From: an uncultured Clostridia bacterium
GTDB taxonomy: Bacteria; Bacillota; Clostridia; Oscillospirales; Ruminococcaceae
DNA: 55,946 bases
Direction: 5' to 3'
Assembly: GCA_947628655.1 (NCBI GenBank)
Contig: CANRAS010000011.1
Location: 1-55,946 of the forward strand
Shown: piece by piece, positions 101 to 55,764 of the stretch
How positions within the stretch are numbered: the first letter of the stretch is position 1
Layout: each line of letters opens with the position of its first letter
Program-made: the position numbers and the translations under genes
Notes under the pieces: model-generated
The model's database searches: none
The model's input: only the letters and a program-made list of their open reading frames with translations
Told to the model about the DNA's origin: nothing

Positions 101-142
101 TTCTTACCTCTTACCTCTAACACCTATTCTCTGCCATCTACC
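101..142. repeat. heptamer array (WCTNNNN), six units
   Basis: Six consecutive 7-bp units (TTCTTAC, CTCTTAC, CTCTAAC, ACCTATT, CTCTGCC, ATCTACC) keep CT in register every seven bases. The last unit contains the CTA that is the TAG stop of the minus-strand trxB gene, so the array abuts and overlaps the end of that gene. Confidence 0.7.
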
Positions 143-1178
143 TAAAATTCAAATAATCCTCCGCAGAGCGAACGCAGTACGCGCCGTCGGCGCAGGCGGT
201 TATGATTTGCCGAAACGGTTTTGTGCGGACGTCGCCCGCCGCGAAAAACCCCGCAAGCGACGTTTTCCCGCTCTCGTCGGCGATGATATAACCGCGTTCG
301 TCAAGCGAAACTATATCTTTCACCGCGTCCGTATTCGGAACAGAACCTATCGCGGCGAAAACCCCGTCCGTAATCAGCTTTTCGCCCTTGCCGTTTATCG
401 ACAGTTCAACCCCGCTTACAGTATTCTTTCCCAGAATTTTGACAAGCGACGCGTTCAGCACGAGTTCAATATTCGCAGTGGCTTTCACCTGCGCGGTAAG
501 CGACGGCGCGGCGCGAAATTCCCCGCGCCGGTGGATAAGATACACCCGCGCGGCAGTCCGCGAAAGATACAAAGCCTCCGACAGCGCGGTGTCGCCCCCG
601 CCTATGACCGCGACTACTTTGTTCTTGTAGAACGCCCCGTCGCAGGACGCGCAGTAACTGACGCCCTGAAGATTTTCGCCCTCTGCGCCGAGTTTGCGCG
701 GAGTACTCCCCAAGGCGTAAATCACGGTTTTGGACAGCATTTCACCGCCGTCCGTGAACCGCGTCAAAAAGCCGTTCGGCACGGTTTCTATCCGAGTTAT
801 CCCGCGCGTTAGAATTTCCGCGCCGAACAGCTCCGCGTGCTTCCGAAATTTCTCGTAGAGTTCAAAACCGTGCGGCGAGCCGCCGCCCGCATTACGTTTC
901 GCGCGTTGTTTCATTGCCGTTTCTTTTCGCTCGATAACAGAACGCGCATTTAGGTCAGGGCTTGCTGACGGCGACCCTATCGAATTAAGTTCCGCTGTTT
1001 GCTCCGTTCCCGTTTCGTTATTGCCGAATATTCCGAGGTAGTTATCAATGCGTTCCGCGGAAACCGCCGCACCTCCCGCGCCGCTGTCGCAAACAACATA
1101 CGAGAGCATTGCCCGCGCCGAGTAAACCGCCGCGCAAAGTCCCGCCGCTCCGCCGCCCGCTATCAGAATGTCGTACAT
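138..1178 (-). CDS. trxB: thioredoxin reductase with an internal insertion
   Basis: NADPH-dependent flavoenzyme that reduces thioredoxin in the cytoplasm. The N-terminal FAD-binding GGGAAG lies at residues 8-13, the redox-active CASC pair at C176/C179, the NADPH-binding GGGDTA at about 193-198, and the C-terminal FAD motif GDVR near 317. At 346 aa it is longer than the usual 305-320 aa. The excess is a stretch at about residues 52-100 between NYLG and GFELYEKFRKHAE, two pieces normally joined by a few residues. The ATG overlaps the TAA of trxA by one base (TAATG), so the pair is translationally coupled. Family assignment is secure; whether the insert is tolerated is unknown. Confidence 0.95.
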   Translation of the reverse strand: MYDILIAGGGAAGLCAAVYSARAMLSYVVCDSGAGGAAVSAERIDNYLGIFGNNETGTEQTAELNSIGSPSASPDLNARSVIERKETAMKQRAKRNAGGGSPHGFELYEKFRKHAELFGAEILTRGITRIETVPNGFLTRFTDGGEMLSKTVIYALGSTPRKLGAEGENLQGVSYCASCDGAFYKNKVVAVIGGGDTALSEALYLSRTAARVYLIHRRGEFRAAPSLTAQVKATANIELVLNASLVKILGKNTVSGVELSINGKGEKLITDGVFAAIGSVPNTDAVKDIVSLDERGYIIADESGKTSLAGFFAAGDVRTKPFRQIITACADGAYCVRSAEDYLNFR

Positions 1179-1489
1179 TACCCCACGCTTTCCCTGACGA
1201 GTTCGGCAAGCTGTGCTTTTGGTACCGCGCCGACAATGCGCCCCGTTTCCTTGCCGTTTTTAAACATTATGAATGTCGGCACGGCGCGCACCCCGTAGCT
1301 TGCGGCGAGTTCGGAATTTGACGCGACGTTTACTTTAACAGCCTTTACACTTCCCGAAAGTTCGTGTTCGAGTTCTTCAAGTACGGGCGACATCTGCCTG
1401 CACGGAACACAGGTTTCCGAATAAAAATCCGCAAGCACCGCGCTTTCTTTAGAAAGTACTCCGCTTAGTTCATTTACTTCAACCGCCAT
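1178..1489 (-). CDS. trxA: thioredoxin
   Basis: Small cytoplasmic disulfide reductase of 103 aa, the normal family length. The active site is CVPC (C27-C30) rather than the usual CGPC, followed by the cis-proline region VPTFIMFKNG. The ATG at 1489 was chosen because AAAGGAG precedes it at good spacing and the product then begins at the thioredoxin fold; the upstream extension in the same frame is hydrophobic and unrelated. It is the first gene of a trxA-trxB operon, so its product and that of the next gene form a complete thioredoxin system. Confidence 0.95.
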   Translation of the reverse strand: MAVEVNELSGVLSKESAVLADFYSETCVPCRQMSPVLEELEHELSGSVKAVKVNVASNSELAASYGVRAVPTFIMFKNGKETGRIVGAVPKAQLAELVRESVG

Positions 1490-1522
1490 AAAAATTCGCT
1501 CCTTTAAAATAGTGTTTTGCAT

Positions 1523-1552
1523 ATTATACGCCCGATAAATACAAATATTCAT
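1523..1552 (-). promoter_or_regulatory. possible promoter of trxA-trxB
   Basis: TATAAT on the minus strand (1528-1523) is preceded by a weak -35 (ATGAAT, about 18 bp away). It is the only good -10 upstream of trxA, but the -35 is poor. Confidence 0.4.
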
Positions 1553-1581
1553 TTGACAGAAATGCAATAATATGCTATAAT
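1553..1581 (+). promoter_or_regulatory. consensus sigma-A promoter for ABC exporter operon
   Basis: TTGACA (1553-1558), 17-bp spacer, TATAAT (1576-1581) with an extended TGC. A second extended -10, TGCTATAAT, lies at 1662-1670 without a clear -35. The two ABC genes start about 170 bp downstream. Confidence 0.8.
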
Positions 1582-1755
1582 ATAGAAAACGCAATATCTT
1601 TAACAGGATAAACCGTATAACCAAAAGGGGCATTATATTGGTATGGGGCAAAGCCTCTTTGTGCTATAATAGTTTTTAGAAATTAGTTTAAAAACCTCTG
1701 CGCGTTTAAATTCCAGCCTCTTCGCATCACGACAACAATAAAAGGGAGTGTATAA

Positions 1756-3507
1756 ATGTTACGACTTGCAAGATATTTAAAGTCTTTTAAACTAAATATA
1801 ACTATCGGTCCTCTTTGCAAGCTGATTGAGGCGGTGTTTGAACTTATTGTACCGCTCGTTATGGCGCGGATAATTGATGTGGGAATTGCGAACGGCGACC
1901 GCGCGTATATCCTGCGCCACGGGATCGTTTTAGTTGTGCTGGCGGTGCTGGGACTTGCAAGCGCGCTCGTGTGCCAATATATGGCAAGCGTTGCCTCGCA
2001 GGGAGTAGGCACGGCTTTGCGCCGCGACTTGTACGCGCATATCAACACGCTGTCCTATAGAGAACTTGACGGCATAGGCACTCCCGCGCTTGTAACGCGC
2101 ATTTCAAACGACGTAAATCAGGTGCAGACCGCTGTCGCTATGCTGATAAGGCTCGTTATCAGAGCGCCGTTTCTCGTCGTGGGAGCTACCGTTATGAGTT
2201 TCGCGGTGTCGCCGAAACTGTCCGTGATTTTTTTTGGAGCAATGGCGGTTATCGTCGGCGTTATGATACCCGTTATGAAAGCCACGGTGCGATTGTTCAA
2301 AAAACAGCAGTCCTCGCTTGACGGAATTTCCCGCATTACCCGCGAAAATCTCACGGGCGTGCGCGTTGTAAGGGCGTTTTCAAGGCAGGATTATGAGAAA
2401 AATCGTTTTGAAGAAGAAGCGGAAGAATACCGGAAATTCGCCGTGAAAGCGGGGCGCATAAACGCGCTGTTAAACCCGATGATATTTGTCGCGGTCAATG
2501 TTTCGTATTTGCTTATAGTACACTTCGGCGCGGATTTTACGGTAAGCGGAATTGACGGTATGACGCAGGGTAATGTTATAGCTTTGGTGAACTATATGAC
2601 GCAGATTTCTTTAGCGCTTGTCGTAGTTGCAAATCTTGTCACGATTTTCACGAAAGCGGCGGCGTCTGCCGCAAGAATAAACGAAATATTCGATACTAAA
2701 TGTTCGATTGCGGACAGCGATACCGAGCCGAAACAGGACGAAAACGCGCCCGCCGTTGAGTTTAGGAGCGTCTGCTTTTCCTATTCGGACGGGGAAAATT
2801 CTCTTGAAGATATAACGTTCACTTTGCAAAAAGGCGAAACGCTCGGAATAATCGGCGGTACGGGTTCGGGAAAAACAACGCTTGTAAATCTGCTTTGCCG
2901 TTTTTACGAGCGTAATAGCGGAGTTATCAAAATAAACGGCGCGGACGTGCGCGATTATCCGACGGCGGCGCTCCGCAGGCTTATCGGGATAGTCCCGCAG
3001 AACGCGCAGCTGCTGTCGGGTACTCTGCGCGAAAATATGACAATGGGGCGCACGGATATTTCCGATGAACAGATACAAAAAGCGCTTGCGGCGGCGCAGG
3101 CAAAGGAGTTTACAGATGAACTCGACGGCGGTCTGGACGCGAAAATTCTTCAAGGCGGGAAGAACCTTTCGGGCGGGCAGAAACAACGGCTTACTATTGC
3201 CCGCGCCCTCGCGCAGAACCCCGAAATCGTGATAATGGACGACAGTTCAAGCGCGCTCGACTATTCTACCGACGCGAAACTTCGCCATGCTTTGAGCGCG
3301 CTCAAGGGAATGACCGTCGTTATCGTTTCGCAAAGGGCAAATTCGATAATGCACGCGGACAGGATAATCGTGCTGGACGACGGGCGCGCGGTCGGTATCG
3401 GAACGCACGCCGAGCTGTTAAGGGACTGCGAGGTCTACCGTGAAATCTGCGCTACGCAGTATTCCGAAGAGGAATTGAAACAGCAGGAAAAGGGGGCGGA
3501 GTTTTGA
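1756..3507 (+). CDS. ABC exporter half-transporter, degenerate-site subunit
   Basis: Membrane domain of six predicted helices (about residues 15-300) followed by a nucleotide-binding domain. The NBD has Walker A GGTGSGKTT (about 366), signature LSGGQ (about 470) and Walker B ending MDDSSSALD (about 493). The catalytic glutamate after Walker B is replaced by Asp, and the switch histidine is Gln (VSQRANS). These substitutions are known from the non-hydrolysing site of heterodimeric exporters such as TM287/288, LmrCD and BmrCD. The start is supported by AAGGGAG. The stop overlaps the next ATG (ATGA), as expected for a coupled heterodimer. The substrate cannot be told from sequence; drug, lipid or peptide export are all possible. 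Confidence 0.9.
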   Translation: MLRLARYLKSFKLNITIGPLCKLIEAVFELIVPLVMARIIDVGIANGDRAYILRHGIVLVVLAVLGLASALVCQYMASVASQGVGTALRRDLYAHINTLSYRELDGIGTPALVTRISNDVNQVQTAVAMLIRLVIRAPFLVVGATVMSFAVSPKLSVIFFGAMAVIVGVMIPVMKATVRLFKKQQSSLDGISRITRENLTGVRVVRAFSRQDYEKNRFEEEAEEYRKFAVKAGRINALLNPMIFVAVNVSYLLIVHFGADFTVSGIDGMTQGNVIALVNYMTQISLALVVVANLVTIFTKAAASAARINEIFDTKCSIADSDTEPKQDENAPAVEFRSVCFSYSDGENSLEDITFTLQKGETLGIIGGTGSGKTTLVNLLCRFYERNSGVIKINGADVRDYPTAALRRLIGIVPQNAQLLSGTLRENMTMGRTDISDEQIQKALAAAQAKEFTDELDGGLDAKILQGGKNLSGGQKQRLTIARALAQNPEIVIMDDSSSALDYSTDAKLRHALSALKGMTVVIVSQRANSIMHADRIIVLDDGRAVGIGTHAELLRDCEVYREICATQYSEEELKQQEKGAEF

Positions 3508-5252: not shown

Positions 5253-5279
5253 CGAAAGGCGTATTTCAGCATAAACGGC

Positions 5280-5306
5280 TTGCCCCCTTTGCGGGGGCAA
5301 TTTTCT
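5280..5306 (+). terminator. intrinsic terminator after ABC exporter
   Basis: Perfect 8-bp stem TTGCCCCC / GGGGGCAA with a 5-nt loop, followed by TTTTCTC. Confidence 0.8.
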
Positions 5307-5365
5307 CTTGAAAGAGATTTTGCCGTCCTGTAATTCGCGCCTGCCGACGCTTTTCAAGAAATCAC

Positions 5366-10811: not shown

Positions 10812-10839
10812 ATCTTACTTCTTACATCTAACATCTAAT
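10812..10839. repeat. heptamer array (WCTNNNN), four units
   Basis: ATCTTAC, TTCTTAC, ATCTAAC, ATCTAAT in exact 7-bp register, placed just after two hairpins and before the ATPase ribosome binding site. Confidence 0.7.
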
Positions 10840-25726: not shown

Positions 25727-25807
25727 TTCTAGTTTCTTATCTCAGGGCAATCCGCAGCGCGGATTGCCCGACTTCTTACATCTTACCTCTTACTTCTAAC
25801 TTCTAAA
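25727..25807. repeat. heptamer array - hairpin - heptamer array
   Basis: Units TTCTAGT, TTCTTAT are followed by hairpin GGGCAATCCGC-AGC-GCGGATTGCCC, then TTCTTAC, ATCTTAC, CTCTTAC, TTCTAAC, TTCTAAA (25773-25807). The next base begins CTA, the TAG stop of comM. The array therefore ends exactly at the gene boundary. Confidence 0.75.
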
Positions 25808-27334
25808 CTACTTTGCCCAATACTTCCTGTCCAGACTCCTAAACCCAATCGCCTGCGCTATATGGGTCTTTTCGATTATCTGCGAACCGTCGAGGTCGGC
25901 GCACGTCCGCGCAACTTTCAGTATTCTGTCATACGCTCTCGCGGACAGTCCTAGTTTTTCAAACGCACGTTTAAGCATATCTTCCGCTGGTTCGGACATT
26001 GCGCATACTTCGGCGATGATGTCGCTTGTAATACGGCTGTTCGAGCGTATTCCCGTGCCTTTAAAGCGCTCCGCCTGAATATCCCGCGCCCGCTGAACGC
26101 GCTCTGCAATAGCGGAGGACGGCTCTTGAGGCTTTCTCTGCGAAAGGTCGTCAAAATCAACGGGGCTTACCTCTATCTGAATGTCAATTCTGTCGAGTAC
26201 GGGCTGTGAGATTTTGTGAAGATACGCCCGCACCTGATTTAAAGAGCAGGTGCATTTTTTCTTGGGATTGCCGAAGTTTCCGCAGGGACACGGGTTCATT
26301 GCCGCGACGAGCATAACGTCGCACGGATATGTAACCGAACCCGCCGCGCGGGAAATCGTTATATCGCCGTTTTCGAGCGGCTGGCGCAGTGTTTCAAGCA
26401 CTTTTCTGTCAAATTCGGGCAGTTCGTCCAAAAACAGCACGCCGTTATGCGCAAGCGAGATTTCTCCGGGCTTTGGTATGCTCCCGCCGCCGACTAGTCC
26501 TACTCCGCTTGCCGTGTGGCTTACCGCGCGGAACGGTCGGCGCGTAACAAGCGGGTGACGCGGGTCGATTATCCCCGCGACAGAGTGAACCTGCGTTGTT
26601 TCTATGCTCTCCTCGAACGAGATTTTCGGCAGAATGGACGGTATGCGTTTCGCAAGCATAGATTTCCCCGAACCGGGAGGACCCAGCATCAGTAAATTAT
26701 GCGACCCCGCCGCCGCTGTTTCAATCGCCTTTTTCGCGGCGTATTGCCCCATAACGTGCGCGAAGTCCTCGTCGCCTATGTATTCGTCAACGGACGGCAT
26801 ATAGCGCGGTTCGGGCGCAATCATTTTCCGCATACGCAAATGGTCGATAATCTTAGTAATATGCTCCGCGCCGTAGACCGTAACGCCCTCGGCAACGGAC
26901 GCCTCCTTTGCATTCGCGGCGGGCAGGAAAACGCGCTTTATCCCGTTCTTTGACGCTTCCAATACCATACTTAAAACGCCGTTTACGGGCGCTAGCGTTC
27001 CGTCAAGCGAAAGTTCTCCGATAAACGCCGCGTCGTCTGTTCCCGTTTGGATAACTCCTATAAGTTCAAGCAACGCCATTGTAATCGGCAAATCGAACAT
27101 CGCGCCCGTCTTGCGGACGCTTGCGGGAGCGAGGTTCACCGTCACTTTACCTCCCGGCAATGCGAGGTTAAGCTGACCCAATACCGCGCGAATACGCGCC
27201 TTGCTTTCCTGCACCGCAACGTCGGGCATTCCCACAATGTCAAAGCTGGGCTGTCCCGCCGACGCGGACGCCTCCGCGACAACGGGGAACGCATTAAGTC
27301 CGAAAAGCCCCGCGCTGTTTATTTTGCTGAACAA
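25808..27334 (-). CDS. comM: ComM/YifB-family AAA+ ATPase
   Basis: Mg-chelatase-like AAA+ protein; in other bacteria ComM is a helicase that promotes branch migration during recombination of incoming DNA. N-terminal ChlI-like region (LFGLNAFPVVAEASAS, VQESKARIRA), Walker A GPPGSGKSML, Walker B LFLDELPEF, then MNPCPCG with a Cys cluster and sensor RxxL region. TTG 27334 is chosen because GGAGG sits 7 bases upstream and the product (508 aa) then begins at the family's usual N-terminus. It is first in the run comM, malQ, ttcA, pulA, pepP. Confidence 0.92.
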   Translation of the reverse strand: MFSKINSAGLFGLNAFPVVAEASASAGQPSFDIVGMPDVAVQESKARIRAVLGQLNLALPGGKVTVNLAPASVRKTGAMFDLPITMALLELIGVIQTGTDDAAFIGELSLDGTLAPVNGVLSMVLEASKNGIKRVFLPAANAKEASVAEGVTVYGAEHITKIIDHLRMRKMIAPEPRYMPSVDEYIGDEDFAHVMGQYAAKKAIETAAAGSHNLLMLGPPGSGKSMLAKRIPSILPKISFEESIETTQVHSVAGIIDPRHPLVTRRPFRAVSHTASGVGLVGGGSIPKPGEISLAHNGVLFLDELPEFDRKVLETLRQPLENGDITISRAAGSVTYPCDVMLVAAMNPCPCGNFGNPKKKCTCSLNQVRAYLHKISQPVLDRIDIQIEVSPVDFDDLSQRKPQEPSSAIAERVQRARDIQAERFKGTGIRSNSRITSDIIAEVCAMSEPAEDMLKRAFEKLGLSARAYDRILKVARTCADLDGSQIIEKTHIAQAIGFRSLDRKYWAK

Positions 27335-36621: not shown

Positions 36622-36892
36622 AGACAGAGGCTAGAAGTGCTTGTTCCGCTTGCGCGGAACTACGCAGAAGCTGGAGGCTAGATTTCAAAGTGCGCCCTTA
36701 CGGGCGCAGAAAGATTGTCTGCGGACTAATACGCCCCTGTTCCGTTCTGCGGCGTGTGGTATTTACCGAGTGTGTCAACGTAATAATTTAAAGACAATCT
36801 AATCGCGGGCGAGAGCCCGCACACTGGAGTCTAGCCTCTGGTTTCTGCATATTTCCGCGACAGCGGAAATATGCGCCTCTAGCCTCTCATTG
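36622..36892. repeat. composite inverted repeat element
   Basis: Arranged symmetrically: GAGGCTAGA, hairpin TGCGCCC-TTAC-GGGCGCA, AGATTGTCT (36712-36720), 71-bp core, AGACAATCT (36792-36800), hairpin GCGGGC-GAGA-GCCCGC, then TCTAGCCTC. A further hairpin, CATATTTCCGC-GACA-GCGGAAATATG, lies at about 36848-36872. It fills the gap before the histidine phosphatase gene. Confidence 0.7.
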
Positions 36893-37005: not shown

Positions 37006-37614
37006 ATGAAGAACTACTACCTGTACCTTATCCGTCACGGAATAACACAAGGAAACCTTGACGGGAAATATATCGGGCAGACCGATCTGTCGCTTTGTCC
37101 CGAAGGACGACGGCGCATTGAGGAACTCGCCGCCGACGATATTTACCCCGAAGTCGGGAAAGTGTATTCCTCGCCGCTTGCGCGGTGTCTTGAAACCGCC
37201 GAAATAATCTACCCCGAACATTCGCTTATGGTGGTGGACGAAATTTGCGAGATGAACTTCGGCGAGTTTGAGAACAAAACGCAAAAGCAGCTGCAAGACC
37301 TTAAAGAATACACCGAATGGCTCAAAGGCGGCGCGGACGTAAGCCCCCCGAACGGCGAAAAGTACGGAGAATTTATGCTCCGCTGTGTCGAGGGTCTGGA
37401 CGCGATATTCACCGATATGATGCGGCGGGACATTACCCGCGCGGCGTGCATAACCCACGCGGGCGTAATAACGAACCTGCTGTGCGGGTGCGGTTTGCCG
37501 AAAGGCAGACCCGCCGATTTCCTGTGCGCACCCGGCGAGGGGTACGAGATAATTTTGTCCACTTTCCTTTGGCAGAAAGGCACGACGTTTGAGATTTCGG
37601 GAAAAATATGCTGA
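37006..37614 (+). CDS. histidine phosphatase-family protein (phosphoglycerate mutase-like)
   Basis: Branch-1 histidine phosphatase of 202 aa. Catalytic LIRHGITQGN has the phosphorylated His; ADD..VYSSPLARCLETA carries the second Arg; a distal His lies in ACITHAGVITN. Substrate cannot be assigned; CobC-, GpmB- or pseudouridine-phosphatase-like roles are all compatible. GGAGG site upstream. The TGA stop is overlapped by one base by a heptamer array. Confidence 0.85.
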   Translation: MKNYYLYLIRHGITQGNLDGKYIGQTDLSLCPEGRRRIEELAADDIYPEVGKVYSSPLARCLETAEIIYPEHSLMVVDEICEMNFGEFENKTQKQLQDLKEYTEWLKGGADVSPPNGEKYGEFMLRCVEGLDAIFTDMMRRDITRAACITHAGVITNLLCGCGLPKGRPADFLCAPGEGYEIILSTFLWQKGTTFEISGKIC

Positions 37615-37648
37615 TAGTTTTTAGAGAATAGTAGTTAGTTATTAGTTG
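37614..37648. repeat. heptamer array, reverse orientation, five units
   Basis: ATAGTTT, TTAGAGA, ATAGTAG, TTAGTTA, TTAGTTG on the plus strand (reverse complement of WCTNNNN units). The first base is the last base of the preceding stop codon. Confidence 0.75.
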
Positions 37649-41337: not shown

Positions 41338-41432
41338 TAAGTTACCTCCTCTTTTAGAGCTGTTACCCTAATAGAAGAATAAGGGATTTTGGGGTGCAGT
41401 TTACTGCAAAGATGTAAGTGGGGGCGAGAGAA

Positions 41433-41500
41433 GTAAGAAGTAAGAGGTAAGAGGTAAGAGAGCGCGGGCGCGTAGTAGCTAGAGAATAGTTATTAGCGGG
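41433..41500. repeat. two heptamer arrays, reverse orientation
   Basis: GTAAGAA then three GTAAGAG (41433-41460), then TAGTAGC, TAGAGAA, TAGTTAT, TAGCGGG (41473-41500). Both are reverse complements of WCTNNNN arrays of the two main sub-types, side by side. Confidence 0.75.
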
Positions 41501-41555
41501 TAATTCGCTTTGCGGATTACCCTGTTAGTTTTGGTGCGGGCTTTCGCCCGTGTTT

Positions 41556-41644
41556 AGATTGTCTTTAAGTCAAGAGTTTACACACTAGGGAAAAGCAACG
41601 CCCCTGCACCGCGGTGCAGGGGCGTATTGACTTAAAGACAATCT
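41556..41644. repeat. MITE-like element with perfect 18-bp inverted repeats
   Basis: AGATTGTCTTTAAGTCAA (41556-41573) and its exact reverse complement TTGACTTAAAGACAATCT (41627-41644) flank a 53-bp core with hairpin GCCCCTGCACC / GGTGCAGGGGC. GC hairpins stand outside both ends (GCGGGC-TTTC-GCCCG and GCGCAC-GAA-GTGCGC). It lies between nrdR and the fibre gene; no transposase is present. Confidence 0.8.
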
Positions 41645-44626: not shown

Positions 44627-44751
44627 GTTGTTTAGAGAATAGAGATTAGTTTTGACCGCAAGCGTAAACGTTTTAATTCAAAGACAATCTTTATTGTCCG
44701 CGGAGCGGACACCAAAACTAATTACTAGCTACTATTCTCTAGCAACTAAAG
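44627..44751. repeat. composite heptamer / AGACAATCT element
   Basis: TTTAGAGAATAGAGATTAG on the left mirrors the right-hand array ACTAATT, ACTAGCT, ACTATTC, TCTAGCA, ACTAAAG (44717-44751). Inside are AGACAATCT (44682-44690) and hairpin GTCCGC-GGA-GCGGAC. The last unit merges into the GGAGG ribosome binding site of the next gene. Confidence 0.75.
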
Positions 44752-44764: not shown

Positions 44765-45346
44765 ATGAACATAAAAATCAACCCCGCTGCGTCCAATACC
44801 CCTGCGGAAAGCGCGTTCGCGCCCTCGGACGACGAGTTCAGGCAGGCTTTGGAAAGCGCGTCTGAGGTTTCCGCTTATGAAAAACTTTCCTCGAATGAAA
44901 ACGCATTTGTTGCGATTTCTCCGAAATATGAAGAAAAGCTGAAACAAGACCCCGACCTCGCCGAGGAAACCGCAAAGCGTATAGAGAACCTCGCCCGCGC
45001 CTACGGCGGCGACCCAAAGGACAGTATTATCGTAATCGACCGACGGGGCGAGATGAAGTATTACTCGACGAAGAAAACCGACCGTGAAAAACGTCTTGAG
45101 GAAATAGAGGCGGAAAGCCTTAAAGAGGCGATAAAAGCGCGTTTGCGCAGGAAAGCGCGTCTGGACGCTTATTTCAAGCTGGTAGAGCGCGGAGCGATAA
45201 AGCGCAAGCTGATAGAGCAGGAAAACGCGAAACGCGCCCGCAACAAGCGTTACCGTACAAATATGGCGAAACTGAACAGCACCGCGCAAAGCCTGACGGG
45301 AGCAACCACGACTGCGGCGGATATTTTGAGTATGCTGGATTTTTAA
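44765..45346 (+). CDS. unknown soluble helical protein, 193 aa
   Basis: No recognisable domain. The N-terminal 40 residues are low complexity (PAASNTPAESAF). A middle part contains KYEEKLKQDPDLAEETAKR and a short beta hairpin IIVIDRRGEMKYY. The C-terminal half is a long Lys/Arg/Glu-rich helix with coiled-coil potential. No signal peptide. It has a good GGAGG site and its own promoter, so it is likely expressed. Related small proteins of unknown function are common in Clostridia (general impression only). Confidence 0.75.
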   Translation: MNIKINPAASNTPAESAFAPSDDEFRQALESASEVSAYEKLSSNENAFVAISPKYEEKLKQDPDLAEETAKRIENLARAYGGDPKDSIIVIDRRGEMKYYSTKKTDREKRLEEIEAESLKEAIKARLRRKARLDAYFKLVERGAIKRKLIEQENAKRARNKRYRTNMAKLNSTAQSLTGATTTAADILSMLDF

Positions 45347-45369: not shown

Positions 45370-45680
45370 TCTGCTGACGGCGGGAGCGGGAAGTGAATAA
45401 AAGAAAAATCCCCCGCGCAGGCGAGGAACACAAAGCCCACCATTCACTCCCCGCCGACGGCGGGGGAGCGAATAAAAGAAAAATCCCCCGCGCAGGCGAG
45501 GAACACAAAGCCCACCATTCACTCCCCGCCGACGGCGGGGGAGCGAATAAAAGAAAAATCCCCCGCGCAGGCGAGGAACACAAAGCCCACAATTCACTCC
45601 CCGCCGACGGCGGGGAGCGAATAAAAGAAAAATCCCCCACGCGCAGGCGAGGAACATATAAAAACCCAATTCATTCCCCG
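45370..45680. repeat. 75-bp tandem repeat, about four copies
   Basis: The unit contains CACAAAGCCCACCATTCACT, hairpin CCCCGCC-GAC-GGCGGGG and GCGCAGGCGAGGAA. CAAAG recurs at 45431, 45506 and 45581, exactly 75 bp apart. The last copy is diverged. Because 75 is a multiple of three, open frames arise on both strands and I do not take them as genes. Confidence 0.9.
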
Positions 45681-45740
45681 CCGTAGGCGGGGAATGAAAA
45701 AATGCCCCCCGCCCACGGCGGGGAACGCTGAACCCCAAGA

Positions 45741-45775
45741 ACTAACTACTAATTACTAATTACTAGCAACTAAAA
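45741..45775. repeat. heptamer array, five perfect units
   Basis: ACTAACT, ACTAATT, ACTAATT, ACTAGCA, ACTAAAA. It runs directly into GAGGTG, the ribosome binding site of the next gene. Confidence 0.8.
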
Positions 45776-45787: not shown

Positions 45788-46174
45788 ATGCTTGACCTTG
45801 TATTTTTGGTATTGTTAATTTACGTTTGCTTTAAAGCCGAGCGGGGCGAGTACAAGGAAACCGCCTGCAATGTCGCGCTTGTTATCGGAATACTCGCGGG
45901 AGTAGTCGGCGCGGCGGTCGGAATAGCGCGCGGTCAGGGAACGTTTGTGTTTTTGAATATTATAGTAATGCTGATGGCGTTCGGACTGCGCTTTGCGGCG
46001 CGGCATTTGGTGAAACTTTACATAGACAGGCAAGTCGCGGAAACCGAACGATTAGAGCGCGAACAATACCTCCGTTCCCGCGGTGACGAGCATATAGTCT
46101 ACGGTGACGATACGGATTTTGACGATGAAGAACTAAGGTTTGGCAAAGGCGGGTATACTGACCCGAAACTGTAA
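45788..46174 (+). CDS. small membrane protein with acidic tail, unknown
   Basis: 128 aa with two or three membrane helices (residues about 2-16, 26-46 and 52-68) and a cytoplasmic helix rich in Glu/Arg, ending in an acidic tail (GDDTDFDDEELRF). ATG 45788 is preferred over GTG 45779, which lies inside the AGAGG site. No family recognised. It is downstream of a 75-bp tandem repeat tract and a heptamer array. Confidence 0.7.
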   Translation: MLDLVFLVLLIYVCFKAERGEYKETACNVALVIGILAGVVGAAVGIARGQGTFVFLNIIVMLMAFGLRFAARHLVKLYIDRQVAETERLEREQYLRSRGDEHIVYGDDTDFDDEELRFGKGGYTDPKL

Positions 46175-46197: not shown

Positions 46198-46330
46198 AAC
46201 ATAAACGTACTCCCCGCCGTCAACAGTTTATAGTGATAAGTTTAAAGTGAATAGCACAAACGCGCTCCCCGCCGTAGGCGGGGAGCGACTATAACAATAA
46301 AAAGTTCCCCCGCAAACGGCGGGGGATTTT
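46198..46330. repeat. heptamer-like array and GC hairpins
   Basis: AGTTTAT, AGTGATA, AGTTTAA, AGTGAAT (about 46225-46252) keep AGT every seven bases. They are followed by hairpins GCTCCCCGCC-GTA-GGCGGGGAGC and CCCCCGC-AAAC-GGCGGGGG. Confidence 0.6.
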
Positions 46331-46575: not shown

Positions 46576-46640
46576 AGACAATCTTTCCGCGCCCGCAGGG
46601 CGTTCCAAAACTAGCTACTAACAACTATTCTCTAGCTACC
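46576..46640. repeat. AGACAATCT motif plus heptamer array at leuA 3' end
   Basis: AGACAATCT (46576-46584), hairpin GCGCCCGCAGGGCGT-like, then ACTAGCT, ACTAACA, ACTATTC, TCTAGCT (46610-46637), ten bases before the leuA stop. Confidence 0.7.
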
Positions 46641-46650: not shown

Positions 46651-48312
46651 TCAAATCAAATTCGAATTATTAATCGCCGACACCAATGCTTTCACCGACG
46701 CTACGACAATATCCGTATCAATCCCCACTCCCCACGATATTTTGCCGTCGGGAGCGGTAATGCCGACGTAGCCTACCGCCTTTGATTTCGAGGTCTGCTC
46801 TATCGCGTGTTCGGCGTAGGTCGCTATTGTGTAGTCAAGCCCCAAGCCGTCTTTCAAGGCGTTGGACACGGAGTCCAAGCGCCCGTTGCCCTCGCCCACA
46901 AGACGGCGCACTTCGCCGTTTATCTTCGCGGTAACTTCCGACGCTATGTGTTCGCCTTGCTTGTAGTGCGCCTCCAGCACTTCAAGTTTCGTTTTCTTGT
47001 TTACATAAGTATTCTCAAAAATTTCATACACTTCGGCAGGCTTTAGTTCCTTGTGAGCGCGGTCGGATACGCCCTTTACCGTGTAGCCGAAGTGTTCGCG
47101 CATTTTCGGCGGCATAACAATACCGAAATTCTGCTCCATAAGATAGCCTATACCGCCCTTGCCCGATTGTGAATTTATGCGGATAACATCGCCCTCGTAC
47201 TCCCTGCCGACATCGTGCGGGTCAATCGGAATATACGGCACATTCCAATGGTCGGGGTCGTTTTCCTCGCGGTAGTGCATACCCTTTGCAATAGCGTCCT
47301 GATGACTTCCCGAAAACGCCGCGTACACGAGCTGTCCGCTGTACGGAGAACGCGCGTTTACTTTCATTCTTGTCAAACGCTCGTAAACATCGACAAGTTT
47401 CGGCAGGTCGGTAAAGTCGAGGTTCGGTTCTACTCCGTGAGTATACATATTAAGCGCCAACGTGATTATGTCAACGTTGCCTGTTCTTTCGCCGTTTCCG
47501 AACAGCGTACCCTCAACTCTGTCCGCGCCCGCAAGCAGCCCAAGTTCCGTATCGGCTACGGCACAGCCCCTGTCATTGTGCGGGTGAAGTGAAACGATAA
47601 TGTTTTCACGGTCGTGCAGTTCCTTGCACATATATTCGATTTGCGACGCGTAAACGTGCGACATACTCTCCGCGACCGTCACGGGCAGATTGATTATGAC
47701 CTTGTTGTCGGCGTCAGGTTTCCAGATGTCGATAACGGCGTTGCAGATTTCGGCGGCAAATTCGGGTTCTGTTCCCGTAAAACTTTCGGGGGAGTACTCA
47801 AAGCGGAAATTGCCGTTTGTTTTCGCTTTAAATTCGTTCATCAGCTTTGCGCCGCTTGTTGCTATCCCGATAATTTCGTCCTTGCTTTTTTTAAACACCT
47901 GTTCCCGCTGAGCGACAGACGTTGAATTGTACAGGTGAACGATAGCGTTCTTGCACCCGTCGAGCGCCTCAAACGTCTTTTTGATGATATGTTCACGGCT
48001 TTGTGTAAGCACTTGAACAGTCACGTCGTCGGGTATCAAATCCCGCTCAATCAGCGCACGGCAGAACTCGTATTCCGTATCCGACGCCGCGGGAAACCCT
48101 ATTTCAATCTCCTTAAATCCAACCGCGACAAGATACTTCCAGAATTCGAGCTTTTCTTCCAAATTCATCGGAATAATCAGCGCCTGATTACCGTCGCGCA
48201 AGTCAACCGAACACCAAACAGGCGGTTTTTCGATATACTCGCGCTTTGTCCATTCCAGACACGGATACGGCGGCATAAAATAGCGCCTTTGGTATTTAGA
48301 TGCGTACTTCAT
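46651..48312 (-). CDS. leuA: 2-isopropylmalate synthase (long LeuA2-type)
   Basis: First committed enzyme of leucine synthesis, condensing 2-oxoisovalerate with acetyl-CoA. The TIM barrel begins VWCSVDLRDGNQALI (metal-binding RDGNQ), with SLHPHNDRGCAVAD for the metal His pair and LFGNGERTGNVDI (GxGERxG). A C-terminal regulatory domain (about 430-553) mediates leucine feedback in this class. 553 aa, as in the actinobacterial-type enzyme. AAGGAG precedes the ATG and is contiguous with a heptamer array. A T-box leader lies about 300 bp upstream. Confidence 0.95.
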   Translation of the reverse strand: MKYASKYQRRYFMPPYPCLEWTKREYIEKPPVWCSVDLRDGNQALIIPMNLEEKLEFWKYLVAVGFKEIEIGFPAASDTEYEFCRALIERDLIPDDVTVQVLTQSREHIIKKTFEALDGCKNAIVHLYNSTSVAQREQVFKKSKDEIIGIATSGAKLMNEFKAKTNGNFRFEYSPESFTGTEPEFAAEICNAVIDIWKPDADNKVIINLPVTVAESMSHVYASQIEYMCKELHDRENIIVSLHPHNDRGCAVADTELGLLAGADRVEGTLFGNGERTGNVDIITLALNMYTHGVEPNLDFTDLPKLVDVYERLTRMKVNARSPYSGQLVYAAFSGSHQDAIAKGMHYREENDPDHWNVPYIPIDPHDVGREYEGDVIRINSQSGKGGIGYLMEQNFGIVMPPKMREHFGYTVKGVSDRAHKELKPAEVYEIFENTYVNKKTKLEVLEAHYKQGEHIASEVTAKINGEVRRLVGEGNGRLDSVSNALKDGLGLDYTIATYAEHAIEQTSKSKAVGYVGITAPDGKISWGVGIDTDIVVASVKALVSAINNSNLI

Positions 48313-48326: not shown

Positions 48327-48361
48327 TTTTAGTTTTTAGTTTATAGTTATTAGCGAATAGT
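48327..48361. repeat. heptamer array before leuA, reverse orientation
   Basis: TTTTAGT, TTTTAGT, TTATAGT, TATTAGC, GAATAGT on the plus strand. On the leuA strand the last unit flows into AAGGAG. Confidence 0.75.
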
Positions 48362-48615: not shown

Positions 48616-48912
48616 ACAAAAAAATTCCCGCCCGCATTTGGGGACGAGAACAAGCCCGTGTTACCACTCCAATTCGCGAACGCCTTACGGCAATTCGCCT
48701 CACAGCGCCAAACAGCGCGTTCCCTTTAACGGGAGAACCCGTAACGGACTAATCGCGCCGTCGCCGTTTAAACACCGCGAACGCTTTCGCCCGTTCTGCT
48801 CGGGGGCGAGTTATCTCCCTGCCCGCTGCCGTCTTGCACCGTCCGACGGCTCTCTGAAAAAGCAAAGCAAGGTCTTGTTCCCCTTCAACGCATTTAAGAT
48901 ATTCTTTTACTG
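48616..48912 (-). promoter_or_regulatory. T-box riboswitch upstream of leuA
   Basis: On the minus strand: a stem I region with CAGAGAGCC and ACTCGCCCCCGAGC, the T-box sequence GAGTGGTAACACGG (about 48657-48670), then a competing terminator stem (TTCTCGTCCC / GGGCGGGAA) followed by TTTTTTT (48616-48651). T-boxes sense uncharged tRNA and let transcription continue. The specifier is probably in AGATAACTCG; I cannot fix which triplet is read without folding. Confidence 0.9.
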
Positions 48913-49298: not shown

Positions 49299-49333
49299 AT
49301 CTAACTTCTTACCTCTAACTTCTTACTTCTAAC
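49299..49333. repeat. heptamer array, five perfect units
   Basis: ATCTAAC, TTCTTAC, CTCTAAC, TTCTTAC, TTCTAAC between the candidate RNA and the tRNA terminator. Confidence 0.8.
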
Positions 49334-49344: not shown

Positions 49345-49387
49345 CCATACAAAATTCCCCCTGCAAAGCAGGGGGAATTTTGTATGG
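49345..49387 (-). terminator. 20-bp hairpin terminating the tRNA operon
   Basis: Perfect 20-bp stem with loop AAA and an AATTTTG tail on the minus strand. The stem includes the encoded CCA of tRNA-Gln. Confidence 0.8.
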
Positions 49388-49460
49388 TTGGGATGGTTGG
49401 ACTCGAACCAACGGAATGACAGAGTCAAAGTCTGTTGCCTTACCACTTGGCTACATCCCA
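49385..49460 (-). tRNA. tRNA-Gln (anticodon TTG)
   Basis: Acceptor TGGGATG / CATCCCA, T-arm GTTGG-TTCGAGT-CCAAC, anticodon loop CTTTGAC closed by ACAGA/TCTGT, encoded CCA. Confidence 0.95.
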
Positions 49461-49550
49461 ATATATCAGCCGAAGTAATGTTCACGGGGACATTCGGCGT
49501 TCATTTAAATATAATCGGGCAAAGGCACAAAGCCAATGCCCGAAAATTTA

Positions 49551-49628
49551 TGGGGTGGGGAGTGGGAATCGAACCCACGGTCTCCGGGACCACAATCCGG
49601 CGCTTTAACCAACTAAGCTATACCCACC
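49551..49628 (-). tRNA. tRNA-His (anticodon GTG)
   Basis: Extra 5' G opposite C73 as expected for His, T-arm GTGGG-TTCGATT-CCCAC, anticodon loop TTGTGGT, encoded CCA. The anticodon stem has one A-C mismatch and the acceptor one T-C mismatch. Confidence 0.93.
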
Positions 49629-49638
49629 GTAACCCAAA

Positions 49639-49715
<77 letters not shown>

Positions 49716-49825
49716 ATACTAGTATCAAACGAAGTTTGATACGGACATTAAAGCCGTAAGGTGAACCCGCAGTCCCCGAATAGGGGAGCGGCGCACAATT
49801 AAAGAAACCCGCCGTTATAGCGGAA

Positions 49826-49899
<74 letters not shown>

Positions 49900-50150: not shown

Positions 50151-50151
50151 C

Positions 50152-50180: not shown

Positions 50181-50216
50181 TAAAACAAGAATTACACAAA
50201 CCGCAGGAGGCGTGCT

Positions 50217-50789: not shown

Positions 50790-50799
50790 GGACAGTTTA

Positions 50800-50930
50800 C
50801 AGTGCATAGTTAGTATGAATAGGGCTGTGGGCTTTCGCACGCCGAAAGATTGTCTTTAAGTTAATGCGTTGATGTTTTGGGTAATACAGTAACCCCCGCC
50901 GTTCGGCGGGGGTCGCTTAACTAGTTCACT
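50800..50930. repeat. heptamer-like sequence, AGATTGTCT motif and hairpin
   Basis: AGTTTAC, AGTGCAT, AGTTAGT at about 50803-50823, AGATTGTCT (50847-50855) followed by TTAAGTTAA, then hairpin ACCCCCGCC-GTTC-GGCGGGGGT near 50890-50912. Confidence 0.6.
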
Positions 50931-50959
50931 ATTACCTATGCTCCGGTTGCTGTCAGCGT

Positions 50960-52933: not shown

Positions 52934-53022
52934 AAATATTCCCCCTTTTTTCAGCATACAATGTTTCTTTACGGCTTTTTGTTTTTTACGCCGAAGCATT
53001 GTGCCTATAATTCCCCAACTTC

Positions 53023-53051
53023 ATTATACATTGTGACAATTTCTTTGTCAA
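53023..53051 (-). promoter_or_regulatory. consensus promoter of CAP-domain protein
   Basis: Minus strand TTGACA (53051-53046), 17-bp spacer, TATAAT (53028-53023). Confidence 0.88.
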
Positions 53052-53226
53052 TACGCGGGATTGACAAATTTTTCACGATTTTTTACTGCATTTTGCCGAG
53101 AGAATTGGGGCGCGGAACTGCTTTGGGGGGCAGATATTGTGGAAAGGGAGGTTGTTCCGTCTACGGCGGAGAAAGCGCCTATAAATTAAAATTGCCGTTC
53201 CCCGCCGTAGGCGGGCAACGGCTTAC

Positions 53227-53262
53227 TGTTCACTCAGCACTCTTAACTGTAAACTGTCACAA
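53227..53262. repeat. heptamer array, ACT sub-type
   Basis: GTTCACT, CAGCACT, CTTAACT, GTAAACT in 7-bp register, immediately before a cloverleaf repeat. Confidence 0.7.
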
Positions 53263-53263
53263 A

Positions 53264-53433
53264 GCCCGCGTTTTGCGCGGAGCGCAAAACAACGGCGCGA
53301 CAGCGCCGTTAATTCGCCGTCAGGCGAATTGCGGGCGTACGGGCAACGGCGCGGTACGGGCGGTAAGGGCGCGTTTAACGCGGGGCGTTAAGCTAACGCG
53401 GGATAAGGGAAAGGGACGCGCGAATTGAGCCAC
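53264..53433. repeat. cloverleaf repeat, copy 3
   Basis: Outer stem 53264-53269 / 53331-53336 with the same three hairpins; the loop of hairpin 1 is GGA. The tail is slightly diverged (GCGCGAATTGAGCCAC). Confidence 0.85.
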
Positions 53434-53540
53434 CCAAACCGCACGGTAAAGCGAACAACGCATTGACTTAAAGAGAATCTAATCCGAGCGCACAGCGCAC
53501 ACAAAAACTAACAGAGTAATCCGCCAACGGCGGATTACTC

Positions 53541-53577
53541 GCTAACTACTAGCAACTATTCTCTAAAAAACTAAAAA
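53541..53577. repeat. heptamer array before cobU-like gene
   Basis: GCTAACT, ACTAGCA, ACTATTC, TCTAAAA and an 8-bp unit AACTAAAA. It ends seven bases before the promoter of the next gene. Confidence 0.7.
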
Positions 53578-53583
53578 AAGCCC

Positions 53584-53612
53584 TTTACAAACGCGAAGAA
53601 ACGTGATATAAT
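53584..53612 (+). promoter_or_regulatory. promoter of cobU-like gene and pilT
   Basis: TTTACA (53584-53589), 17-bp spacer, TATAAT (53607-53612). Confidence 0.8.
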
Positions 53613-53649
53613 AAAAGTACCATATACTTACAGCAGAAAGGAAATAAAT

Positions 53650-54195
53650 ATGTCAGATTAAATTTTTGTCACGGGCGGTGTGGCAAGCGGAAAGGCGCGC
53701 TTTGCTATCGGCAATTTCGCGTCGCTTGACTATGTGCTTTATTTGAGAGCAGGCGAGGATCTCGACCCTGATATAACTCAGCGCGTAGATTACAGCACGA
53801 AGAAAAACGGCGTTGAGCGGAATGTAGTCCACAAGCAGACGCTTACTCCCGCCGACGAGGTAAAAGACCACAAGTTCGTAATTTTCGACAGCCTGTCGGC
53901 GTATGCACGCCTTGTTATGGAGGATATGTGCAAGAGCGAGGACGATATTACCCCCGAACTTAAAAAGCAAATCGAAAAACGCGTAATCGACGGCATAACG
54001 GCACTTCAGGACAAGGTGACGGAAAACCACGGCAACCTTATCATAATCTCGCTTGAAACAGGCTTTTCCGTAAGACCTACAGACCGCGCTCTCGCGGCGT
54101 ATCGTGATATTATGGGACGCGTAAATCAGCGTATAACCAGCACCTGCGCAGAAGTGTATTTCTCCGCAAGCGGTATTCAGTTCAGGATTAAATAA
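53650..54195 (+). pseudogene. cobU: CobU-like cobinamide kinase gene with TAA at codon 4
   Basis: AAAGGAAA and ATG 53650 are followed by TCA GAT TAA, then an intact frame reading IFVTGGVASGKARFA, the P-loop of CobU-type cobinamide kinase/guanylyltransferase. The rest also fits: a central IFDSLSAYARLV Walker-B-like strand and C-terminal LIIISLETGFSVRPTDRALA, DIMGRVNQRI, AEVYFSASGI. Only the fourth codon is disrupted; TTA or CTA there would restore a 181-aa protein. In-frame GTG 53680 would delete most of the P-loop. It may be a nonsense mutation, a sequencing error or an unusual start. The lack of decay downstream suggests recent loss or continued translation. Confidence 0.7.
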
Positions 54196-54227
54196 GCGAC
54201 AGCTTATTGTTGAGTAAGGAGTAGTTT

Positions 54228-55283
54228 ATGACATTTGAAGAGTTTATTATGGAGGCACGCGAGAGAAACGCGTCCGATATTCACCTGACAGTCGGCGCAC
54301 CGACCGTTATCAGAGTAAACGGCGAACTTCAGAAGTATCAGGAATTATCAAGCCAAGTCGTACATAGGACTATCGTGTCCATTCTGTCGGCAGAGCAGGA
54401 AAAACTGCTTACAGAGGGCAACGACATCGACTTCTCGTTTGAACTTAAAAACGGCGCAAGACAGCGTGTGAACGTCTTTCATCAAGAGGGAAAACTCGCT
54501 TGTTCTATTCGTCTGCTAAATTCTGAGATACCCTCGCTTGATAAGCTGGGTATGCCGTCCGTTTTGCTTGAACTTGCTAAAAAGCGCAAGGGTCTGGTAC
54601 TCGTCACAGGACCTACGGGCGCGGGCAAATCCACTACGCTTGCCGCGATGATACAGCACATCAACGAAACGCGCGCGTGCCACATCATCACAATAGAAGA
54701 CCCTATCGAGTATCGCTACACACAGGCGAAAGCGACCATTCACCAGCGCGAAGTCGGACGTGATGTAAAGTCGTTCGATTACGCATTGAGGAGCGCTTTG
54801 CGTGAGGACCCCGATGTTATACTTATCGGAGAAATGCGCGATTACGAAACGATTATGCTCGCGCTTACGGCGGCGGAAACAGGACACCTGGTGTTCGGTA
54901 CTCTGCACACGAGTTCCGCGGCACAGACTGTTGACCGTATTGTTGACGTTTGCCCGGCGGAAGCCAAAGAACAGGTTCGTTCACAGCTTTCAAATATGAT
55001 ACAGGGCGTTGTGTCGCAGTCGCTCGTTCCGACGCAGGACGGCAAGGGCAGATGCGCGGCGGTTGAAGTAATGCTCGGCACGGACGCTATCAAGAACCTT
55101 ATTCGTTCAAACAAAGTGGCGCAAATGGAAACGACAATCCAAAGCGCAACGCAGCTCGGTATGTGTACGCTTATAGAAAGCCTTGCAAAACTCTATATGT
55201 CAGGCAAGATAAGCTACCAGACCGCGCTCGAATACTCCAACAACCCGACGGAAATGGAGAAGAAACTCACGGGAAGTATTTAA
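54228..55283 (+). CDS. pilT: PilT-like type IV pilus retraction ATPase
   Basis: Hexameric secretion-type ATPase (351 aa) powering pilus retraction or twitching/DNA uptake. N-terminal PAS-like region (ARERNASDIHLTVGAPTVIR), Walker A GPTGAGKST, Asp box ITIEDPIEY, Walker B DVILIGEMRD, His box GHLVFGTLHTSSA, and the C-terminal AAVEVMLGT region near the usual AIRNLIR motif (KNLIRSNK). No other pilus gene is in the window. A GAGTAAGGAG site precedes the ATG, 32 bp after the cobU-like gene, so they are probably cotranscribed. Confidence 0.94.
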   Translation: MTFEEFIMEARERNASDIHLTVGAPTVIRVNGELQKYQELSSQVVHRTIVSILSAEQEKLLTEGNDIDFSFELKNGARQRVNVFHQEGKLACSIRLLNSEIPSLDKLGMPSVLLELAKKRKGLVLVTGPTGAGKSTTLAAMIQHINETRACHIITIEDPIEYRYTQAKATIHQREVGRDVKSFDYALRSALREDPDVILIGEMRDYETIMLALTAAETGHLVFGTLHTSSAAQTVDRIVDVCPAEAKEQVRSQLSNMIQGVVSQSLVPTQDGKGRCAAVEVMLGTDAIKNLIRSNKVAQMETTIQSATQLGMCTLIESLAKLYMSGKISYQTALEYSNNPTEMEKKLTGSI

Positions 55284-55312
55284 CTTTTTATAGTATTGAG
55301 TGAATAGTAAGA

Positions 55313-55341
55313 GCGTTCTCCCGCCTACGGCGGGAGAACGC
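55313..55341 (+). terminator. hairpin after pilT
   Basis: Perfect 13-bp stem GCGTTCTCCCGCC / GGCGGGAGAACGC, loop TAC. A second hairpin, CACCCCCGCC-GAC-GGCGGGGGTG, follows at about 55354-55378 with TTGTAAATT after it. Confidence 0.6.
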
Positions 55342-55429
55342 GAAGAACACAAAGCACCCCCGCCGACGGCGGGGGTGCTTGTAAATTAAAGTGGGCGTTT
55401 CCCCGCCCGCGGTGCGGAAAGGGTGTCTA

Positions 55430-55632
55430 GCCCGCGTTTTGCGCAAAGCGCAAAACAACGGCGCGACAGCGCCGTTAATTCGCCGTCAGGCGAATTGCGG
55501 GCGGTCGGTCAAAGGCGCGGTACGGGCGGTGCAGGCGCGTTTATACGCGGGACGGTAAACTAATGCGGGATAAGGACGCGGGGCGCTTGAATTGAGCCAC
55601 GCCATACGTGCGGTAAAGTGAGCAACGCTTTG
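55430..55632. repeat. cloverleaf repeat, copy 4
   Basis: Outer stem 55430-55435 / 55497-55502, hairpin loops AAA, GACA and GTCA. The tail continues through GTGCGGTAAAGTGAGCAACG to an AGACAATCT motif (55639-55647) and hairpin GCGGGC-GTAA-GCCCGC. Confidence 0.88.
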
Positions 55633-55683
55633 ACCCCAAGACAATCTAATAAGCGGGCGTAAGCCCGCAACTCTATCCGTACT

Positions 55684-55764
55684 TTGCACTATGCACTCTT
55701 AACTGTAAACTGTTACAGGGCGCACCAATACTAGCTACTAGCCTCTAATCTCTAGTTACTAGTA
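55684..55764. repeat. two heptamer arrays, both sub-types
   Basis: TTGCACT, ATGCACT, CTTAACT, GTAAACT at about 55685-55712, then ACTAGCT, ACTAGCC, TCTAATC, TCTAGTT, ACTAGTA (55730-55764). Confidence 0.75.

Follow-up and report, generated by a model that had tools for sequence, protein, structure and literature searches.

Degenerate seven-base arrays as probable modules of dispersed intergenic repeats in an uncultured Clostridia bacterium

Miniature inverted-repeat transposable elements (MITEs) and pneumococcal BOX elements are dispersed, non-autonomous repeats, bounded by inverted ends or built of modular parts. Unlike either, the repeats considered here, from a 55,946-nt stretch of contig CANRAS010000011.1 of an uncultured Clostridia bacterium (the window), appear to have ends built of degenerate seven-base units (heptads). 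TAACTGA heptamer direct repeats are known from Beggiatoaceae, cyanobacteria, and Bacteroidetes, with 169 sets of 2 to 6 copies, and an RNA-binding regulator was proposed for them (MacGregor 2015, PMC4679880). As far as the accessible part of that account goes, they share with the present arrays a 7-bp step, many intergenic sites, a frequent position just upstream of a start codon, a patchy distribution among lineages, and the lack of a known reader, but they consist of one exact word whose variants are rare as repeats, whereas several words in one register with variable units were found here, in arrays attached to hairpins or forming inverted element ends. Repetitive extragenic palindromes (REPs) and related tagged repeats are likewise short palindromes lying mostly downstream of genes and forming pairs of opposite orientation (Di Nocera 2013, PMC3733652, in the portion accessible); unlike them, the present elements have no constant GTAG or CGTC tag, lack a Y1 transposase in the most array-rich genomes, and carry a heptad array after the hairpin.

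Two further systems are closer in unit geometry. The parS sites of Omega (ParB of pSM19035) consist of WATCACW heptads bound by one dimer each, at least four being needed for full activity (PMC9499535, accessible part). These sites and the present arrays are alike in being contiguous, unspaced, and non-palindromic 7-bp sites, and 13 runs of at least four WCTNNNN heptads occur in the window; Omega parS differs in comprising six plasmid sites of 7 to 10 heptads and in using another word. A one-molecule-per-heptad geometry therefore works on contiguous heptads, a parallel that is an analogy only. The GGGNATC heptads of Xanthomonas and Nostoc are, like ours, abundant, over-represented in noncoding DNA, and partial to four units, as described in the accessible part of Rehm 2015 (PMC4692102), but they are G-rich and quadruplex-forming, whereas the present units lack any run of three G, and a G-quadruplex reading was rejected on that ground. 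Heptamer arrays and REPs are thus already described; for heptads as the ends of mobile repeats, or in combination with miniature or hairpin elements as here, no description was found among the open-licence papers that the searches listed.

Our preferred reading, to which we assign a probability of about 0.6, is that the heptad arrays belong, as modules, to short dispersed repeats that are non-autonomous and apparently mobile and that multiply and recombine between genes, with the arrays as putative recognition ends. It rests on the defined ends and repeated lengths of elements in one relative, on differences in their presence between relatives, on hairpins that covary, on words particular to lineages, and on a strict CT register. 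Heptad repeats, known from several bacterial phyla, can here be assigned to elements that have defined ends and hairpins, sites both occupied and empty, and words that differ by species.

Register, words, and distribution of the arrays

The seven-base arrays are real and strongly held in register. Runs of at least four WCTNNNN units numbered 13 in the window against a mean of 0.05 (maximum 1) in 60 dinucleotide shuffles, and runs of at least three units numbered 23 against 0.9 (maximum 4). A motif-free scan, in which a segment is one trinucleotide common to four consecutive units at a given lag, returned 15 lag-7 segments in the window; a 400-kb sample of G000, the window's own genome (2.09 Mb in 34 contigs, 95.6% complete), gave 67. 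In that sample, control lags of 4, 5, 8, 10, 11, 13, 16, 17, 19, and 20 gave 1, 5, 4, 0, 8, 3, 1, 3, 1, and 6 segments, and codon-multiple lags of 6, 9, 12, 15, 18, and 21 gave 14, 25, 18, 5, 7, and 27. The first-pass annotation of this DNA, made from its letters, had proposed a lag-7 periodicity above shuffled sequence, and this was borne out (13 runs of at least four units against 0.05 in shuffles, and 67 segments against 0 to 8 at lags that are not codon multiples). All 11 tracts that it named have period-7 units with CT in a fixed phase; its description of four or more consecutive WCT units fails in two, because three WCT units are followed in tract 101-142 by one CCT and two TCT units, and because a GCT unit splits the WCT run of 48327-48361(-) into pieces of fewer than four. 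Additional tracts include 36823-36850, 46221-46248(-), 53225-53259, 53542-53569, and 55681-55715. At curated score, the only Rfam matches in the window were a T-box and four tRNAs, and the arrays matched no family.

Three words share the one register, namely A (HTCTWAC), B (ACTANNN), and C (ACTNTNN), so that the sub-types suspected earlier correspond to three real families. G000 held 262 matches to A (three units, overlapping), 124 to B, and 43 to C, and none to the reversed patterns. Arrays of A in relatives end with TCTARAAGG. The usual unit order is CTAACTACTAACAACTATTCTCTAGCTAC in B and ACTATGCACTATTAACTATAAACTG in C, and this fixed order recurs in copies all over the G000 sample, so much of the likeness among B and C copies stems from descent from a copied element. 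Words are also joined on the same strand into mosaics, C-to-B (55681-55764), B-to-A (41490 down to 41425, minus strand), and C-to-A (C3, 11.9 kb). A further word, TGTACAC (ACTGTAC), occurs in G005, a relative, and once among the listed G000 arrays. Integron attC core sites (RYYYAAC) were considered as a candidate and rejected, since they are like single A units and unlike arrays.

Constraint was measured on the unit lying between two exact anchor units, the middle unit being scored in order to avoid circularity. Among 76 such A units of G000, T-C-T-x-A-C was kept in 71, 76, 76, -, 73, and 67, while position 1 varied (C/T/A 38/21/16 and one G), as did position 5 (T/A 55/20 and one G). Middle lengths of 5, 6, 8, and 9 between A anchors occurred in 2, 5, 1, and 0 cases, against 76 at 7. 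In three relatives (G005, G007, and G010; 75 middle A units together), the core C was kept in 74 and the core T in 72, and position 6 was A or G (53/21). The core was equally firm in B (C 57/58, T 58/58) and in C (C 17/17, T 16/17). G000 had 12 exact A arrays of three units and 17 of four or more, and within these 29 arrays units were about as alike as in shuffles (0.396 against 0.371; 0.622 against 0.624 for positions 1 and 5), with 99, 246, and 204 of 500 shuffles equaling or exceeding the observed likeness at positions 1, 5, and 6. Near-identical tandem copies, as in short tandemly repeated repetitive (STRR) sequences, were thus not found in G000. In G005, G007, and G010 (9, 10, and 12 arrays), positions 5 and 6 were more alike within arrays than shuffled, the likeness at positions 5/6 being reached by 5/7, 0/0, and 14/0 of 500 shuffles. 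Units in G000 therefore vary independently, and arrays in the relatives are partly homogeneous. The claim of a constrained register with variable content, distinct from a simple satellite, holds for G000 (core CT 76/76; likeness within arrays equal to that between them).

The heptad words are lineage-specific. Three exact A units were found in 17 of 61 genomes, all 17 among the 37 of the genus and none among the 24 from other families of the order. B occurred in 5 of 41 genus genomes (124, 25, 7, 7, and 1 matches) and C in 2 of 41 (43 and 1). In a scan of a named genome collection, in which the window's own genome may have been passed over, four exact A units were present in at least 117 stretches; the 80 listed of these belong to uncultured Clostridia and, often as near-perfect copies, to records titled with Bacteroidota genera, cyanobacteria, and others. 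The four-exact-unit pattern preselects near-perfect arrays and says little about degenerate ones. IMG/VR viral contigs held 59 stretches with four exact A units (L190-L248). In two other stretches (L100 1891-1960, Nitrospinota; L113 2844-2955, Nitrospirae), TCTWAC/TCTTGC arrays stand head to head with 3 to 4 bases between them and can form long hairpins.

Ends, hairpins, and turnover

Elements with defined ends and recurring lengths were recognized in G005. Its ends, TCTWACNTCTARAAGG, occurred 220 times with at most one mismatch, against once for the reversed pattern. Among 100 listed exact ends, neighbors less than 500 bp apart were oriented outward in 17 cases, inward in 2, and in tandem in 7, and 6 of the 17 outward pairs were spaced at exactly 157 bp. 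Fourteen elements from 15 loci could be aligned; they measure 166 to 266 bp and have CCTTYTAGA/TCTARAAGG ends with inverted A arrays. Six are exactly 173 bp long, four with one common interior and two that differ inside. Short dispersed copies with terminal inverted repeats and no capacity to code, as in MITEs, were thereby found for the A type in G005 only. At two loci (L335 and L337), a palindrome, CATTATCCGCC..GGCGGATAA, lies between units inside the heptad array.

B and C arrays often sit behind a GACAATCT leader and a hairpin; dispersed hairpin-bearing elements around the arrays had not been foreseen in the first-pass annotation. The leader occurred 66 times in about 456 kb against about 14 expected. 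A hairpin followed within 40 nt at 41 of these 66 sites, with 22 different stems, and a few of the 41 look unrelated; this hairpin-rich genome gave a background of 92 in 400 random noncoding 40-mers. The commonest loops were GAGA, GGA, GCA, GTA, and GAA, and GNA and GNRA loops form very stable DNA hairpins. Covariation was examined in an alignment of 35 of the 66 sites (34 distinct), chosen for a perfect stem and a loop starting with G. Five of the seven stem pairs were altered on both sides, cells changed on both sides numbered 44 against 14.3 in shuffles and 0 to 10 with the partner slid, and the covariation score was 0.515 against 0.161. Because the rows were selected for a perfect stem, the paired percentage (88.6) is not independent, whereas the diversity of stems is. 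In the same 35 hairpins neither GTAG nor CGTC was constant next to the palindrome, CGTC being present only where the stem starts GTCC.

Elements are present or absent between close relatives. Mean identity among G005, G007, and G010 was 91 to 92% over aligned blocks, and about 92% over 5.5 kb for G002. One insert, 381 bp long and containing an inverted heptad pair, is carried by G005 and had no counterpart in G010; in the alignments at this insert, 421 bp of G005 stand opposite 9 bp of G002, and 437 bp opposite 33 bp of G007. Another, of 396 bp, is carried by G007, likewise contains an inverted heptad pair, and has borders that share 8 bp; it was missing from G005 and G010. Empty sites of the kind expected of MITEs were thus found for two composite inserts, in both of which other repeat sequence surrounds the heptad pair; by eye, they lie inside a larger repeat with its own inverted ends, apparent copies of which also exist without heptads. 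In 0.7 Mb of DNA compared, the flanks of one element (L331) join, with 3 to 4 bp duplicated, into a sequence found elsewhere; for the other 11 of 12 elements no exact empty site was found there, and the flanks of several come from different repeats.

The 160 kb of G005 compared contain 22 arrays; one fell inside the blocks that align with G010 and none inside those that align with G007 (blocks covering 96 and 79 kb of the 160 kb). Another 17 and 16, respectively, were situated in interblock gaps not exceeding 1.5 kb, and the others in longer gaps or outside the aligned part. At one of these loci, at about 52.4 kb of G005, all three genomes (G005, G007, and G010) carry arrays whose words differ (TCTAAC, TCTAGC, and mainly TCTTGC). 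Arrays outside aligned blocks and differing words at one locus point to turnover of whole modules and not of single units.

Mobile repeats and competing explanations

As MITE-like inverted ends (A) or parts of REP-like leader-hairpin-array elements (B and C), the arrays would act as multi-site recognition ends offering several contiguous sites, to which a recombinase or partner protein supplied in trans might bind cooperatively, one molecule per heptad. The word could drift at tolerated positions while the 7-bp step and CT core stay, and could be replaced as a block through recombination between copies. Insertions would survive mainly in short gaps of a compact genome, which would explain why arrays abut stop codons and ribosome-binding sites. 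The strict constraint on each unit suits the earlier idea of a module that reads one unit per repeat, a reader that remains putative, and by analogy with Omega we infer that the array may offer a recombinase or partner protein several sites to land on. Such a reader, if it exists, would be a protein or RNA recognizing a strictly spaced 7-bp code with tolerated positions, and the dozens of genomes of this one genus, at graded distances from each other, make it possible to test what reads or makes heptads. We would go further only tentatively, to a doubtful but possible reading in which the elements represent a novel type of mobile repeat between genes. Contiguous heptads, with a CT that hardly ever varies at each 7-bp step, would spell out a degenerate code at its ends, and one molecule of a factor would read each unit. 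On that reading the reader or guide must be re-targetable, since the words differ between species (HTCTWAC, HTCTWGC, ACTANNN, ACTNTNN, ACTGTAC) and the register is constant; similar arrays from other phyla would in that case reflect the same system or its convergent use.

Several observations weigh against the mobile-repeat reading. The inverted A ends are established in a relative and not in the window's genome, where A arrays are mostly single (2 neighbor pairs less than 600 bp apart among 31). A short duplication accompanied only 1 of the 12 distinct elements tested, and the exact 30-bp direct repeat flanking the 381-bp insert is unlike a short target duplication. Facing gaps are about equal at several loci (e.g., 447 and 444 bp), so an unaligned counterpart is possible there. 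In the hairpin alignment, whose 35 rows were preselected as described, the number of pairs with change on both sides and that of further pair types do not exceed shuffles (204 and 476 of 500). The long outward pairs of G005 (1.4, 4.2, and 4.4 kb, a 5.0-kb pair being left out) showed no autonomous copy or transposase when open frames were judged by eye without a family search, and no mover turned up, Y1 being the only transposase family surveyed.

The position of arrays relative to genes was determined with a simple gene caller written for this analysis. Runs of at least four units were intergenic in 68 of 73 cases, though 79 to 85% of the DNA is coding. Of the 38 arrays whose 3' side faces a stop, 27 lie within 30 nt of it, and five arrays face a start at 8 to 13 nt; counted by 3' neighbor, starts against stops were 14 vs 13 for A, 8 vs 14 for B, and 3 vs 11 for C. 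We infer from this insertion into short gaps of a compact genome. Were the arrays operators or untranslated-region sites for a heptad-binding protein or RNA-binding regulator, spread by copying and kept for regulation, a preference for starts would be expected, and none is seen; positions are also seldom conserved between species. The strict per-unit constraint would fit such a role, as would three B arrays (44717, 45741, and 48327) that end at a ribosome-binding site and the need of Omega for at least four contiguous heptads (PMC9499535, accessible part). Its protein family was of little help, as Omega_Repress (PF07764) was detected in none of 41 genus genomes and likewise in none of 14 control genomes. 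Some elements may carry outward promoter halves, since 4 of 44 B runs of at least three units end in ACTACTTGAC (a -35 box, sigma-70-like, with a -10 at the right distance) against 37 of 4000 random noncoding places, where a wider stretch was tested, but among runs of at least four units the promoter test was passed by only 2 of 25 B, 1 of 29 A, 0 of 16 C, and 0 of 3 unclassed. On balance, we regard regulation as an unlikely account of the arrays.

The same stop-proximal position would be explained if the elements were all-frame stop cassettes, in which an antisense stop codon in each heptad permits insertion at the ends of genes: antisense TAA or TAG is present in most A and B units, and a 7-nt step passes through all three frames. 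This is scarcely plausible given that, in six G000 genes compared with one to six relatives each (usable orthologs for five of seven array-facing genes, plus leuA), the native C-terminus was kept to within two residues in five and the array begins after the stop; only in gene C1:4127-4909 was the tail changed, running into array sequence. The ACTGTAC word, moreover, lacks such stops. Mobilization of REP elements by a REP-associated tyrosine (RAYT, Y1) transposase shares the palindromes, intergenic sites downstream of genes, and opposite-orientation pairs (PMC3733652, accessible part). It too seems most improbable, there being no constant GTAG tag and CGTC being confined to GTCC stems. The Y1 domain (Y1_Tnp, PF01797) was present in 8 of 41 genus genomes, among them the array-bearing G035 and G006, and in 5 of 14 control genomes, but in none of the array-rich G000, G002, G005, G007, G010, and G034, whose assemblies are incomplete. 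In these assemblies a RAYT is probably not what drives the elements at present. Ordinary heptanucleotide satellites, arising by slippage and worn by mutation, would account for the near-perfect TCTWACN arrays in other phyla and for the homogeneity at positions 5 and 6 in the three relatives. We nevertheless consider them very unlikely, because the likeness of G000 units is no greater inside an array than from one array to another, fixed positions hardly wear, the order of B and C unit types recurs in copies across the sample, and array ends and element lengths are defined in G005.

Features of the window and other repeats

The arrays and modules of the window are listed in Table 1.

Table 1. 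Heptad arrays, leaders, and hairpins in the window (positions in nt; hairpin loops in parentheses)
Feature	Position	Strand
A-type array, 3 WCT units, degenerate units up to 142	102..122	+
A-type array, 4 units, upstream of P-type cation ATPase gene (start 10848 or 10881)	10812..10839	+
A-type array, 5 units, antisense up to stop codon of gene 25808-27334(-)	25773..25807	+
GACAATCT leader, hairpin GCGGGC(GAGA)GCCCGC, 4-unit WCT run from 36823	36793..36850	+
B-type array, 5 units, antisense to stop of gene 37006-37614(+)	37612..37646	-
GACAATCT leader and hairpin CGGGC(GAAA)GCCCG, opening a composite element	41520..41563	-
B-type array, 3 units, behind second hairpin (TAATCCGC..GCGAATTA)	41470..41490	-
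A-type array, 5 WCT units, directly behind B array on same strand (B-to-A mosaic)	41425..41459	-
GACAATCT leader and hairpin TGTCCGC(GGA)GCGGACA	44683..44711	+
B-type array, 5 units, abutting ribosome-binding site of gene 44765-45346	44717..44751	+
B-type array, 5 units, abutting ribosome-binding site of gene 45788-46174	45741..45775	+
C-type array, 4 units	46221..46248	-
GACAATCT leader and hairpin CGCCC(GCA)GGGCG	46577..46602	+
B-type array, 4 units, 13 nt from stop of leuA (46651-48312, -)	46610..46637	+
B-like array, one GCT unit, upstream of leuA, ending at its ribosome-binding site	48327..48361	-
A-type array, 5 units, beside tRNA cluster	49299..49333	+
C-type array, 5 units, after hairpin CCCGCC(GTA)GGCGGG	53225..53259	+
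B-type array, 4 units, after hairpin TAATCCGCC(AAC)GGCGGATTA	53542..53569	+
GACAATCT leader and hairpin GCGGGC(GTAA)GCCCGC	55640..55668	+
C-type array, 5 units	55681..55715	+
B-type array, 5 units, behind C array (C-to-B mosaic)	55730..55764	+

Other repeats were encountered alongside the arrays. A second, heptad-free family with ends CAGACTGTAWANAAAGCCCC occupies 98 places in G007 (at most two mismatches; e.g., L280 and L287); the ends pair at roughly 85 to 160 bp, insertions differ among G005, G007, and G010, and no clear pair at transposon length was seen by eye among the 98 places. A palindromic repeat of roughly 100 bp, present or absent among relatives, lies at promoter positions near 67 kb and near 89 kb in the joined G005, G007, and G010 stretches, and once just upstream of an apparent tmRNA. 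Within the window, a 75-bp unit repeated four times in tandem (45388-45692), seemingly with hairpins of its own, immediately precedes a B array. The T-box leader (RF00230, 99.4 bits, 48637-48897(-)) is upstream of leuA, which heptad arrays flank on both sides. An A array adjoins the cluster of four tRNAs (Gly, Arg, His, Gln) at 49385-49899(-), and in both G000 and G005 arrays lie directly behind what looks like tRNA-Leu.

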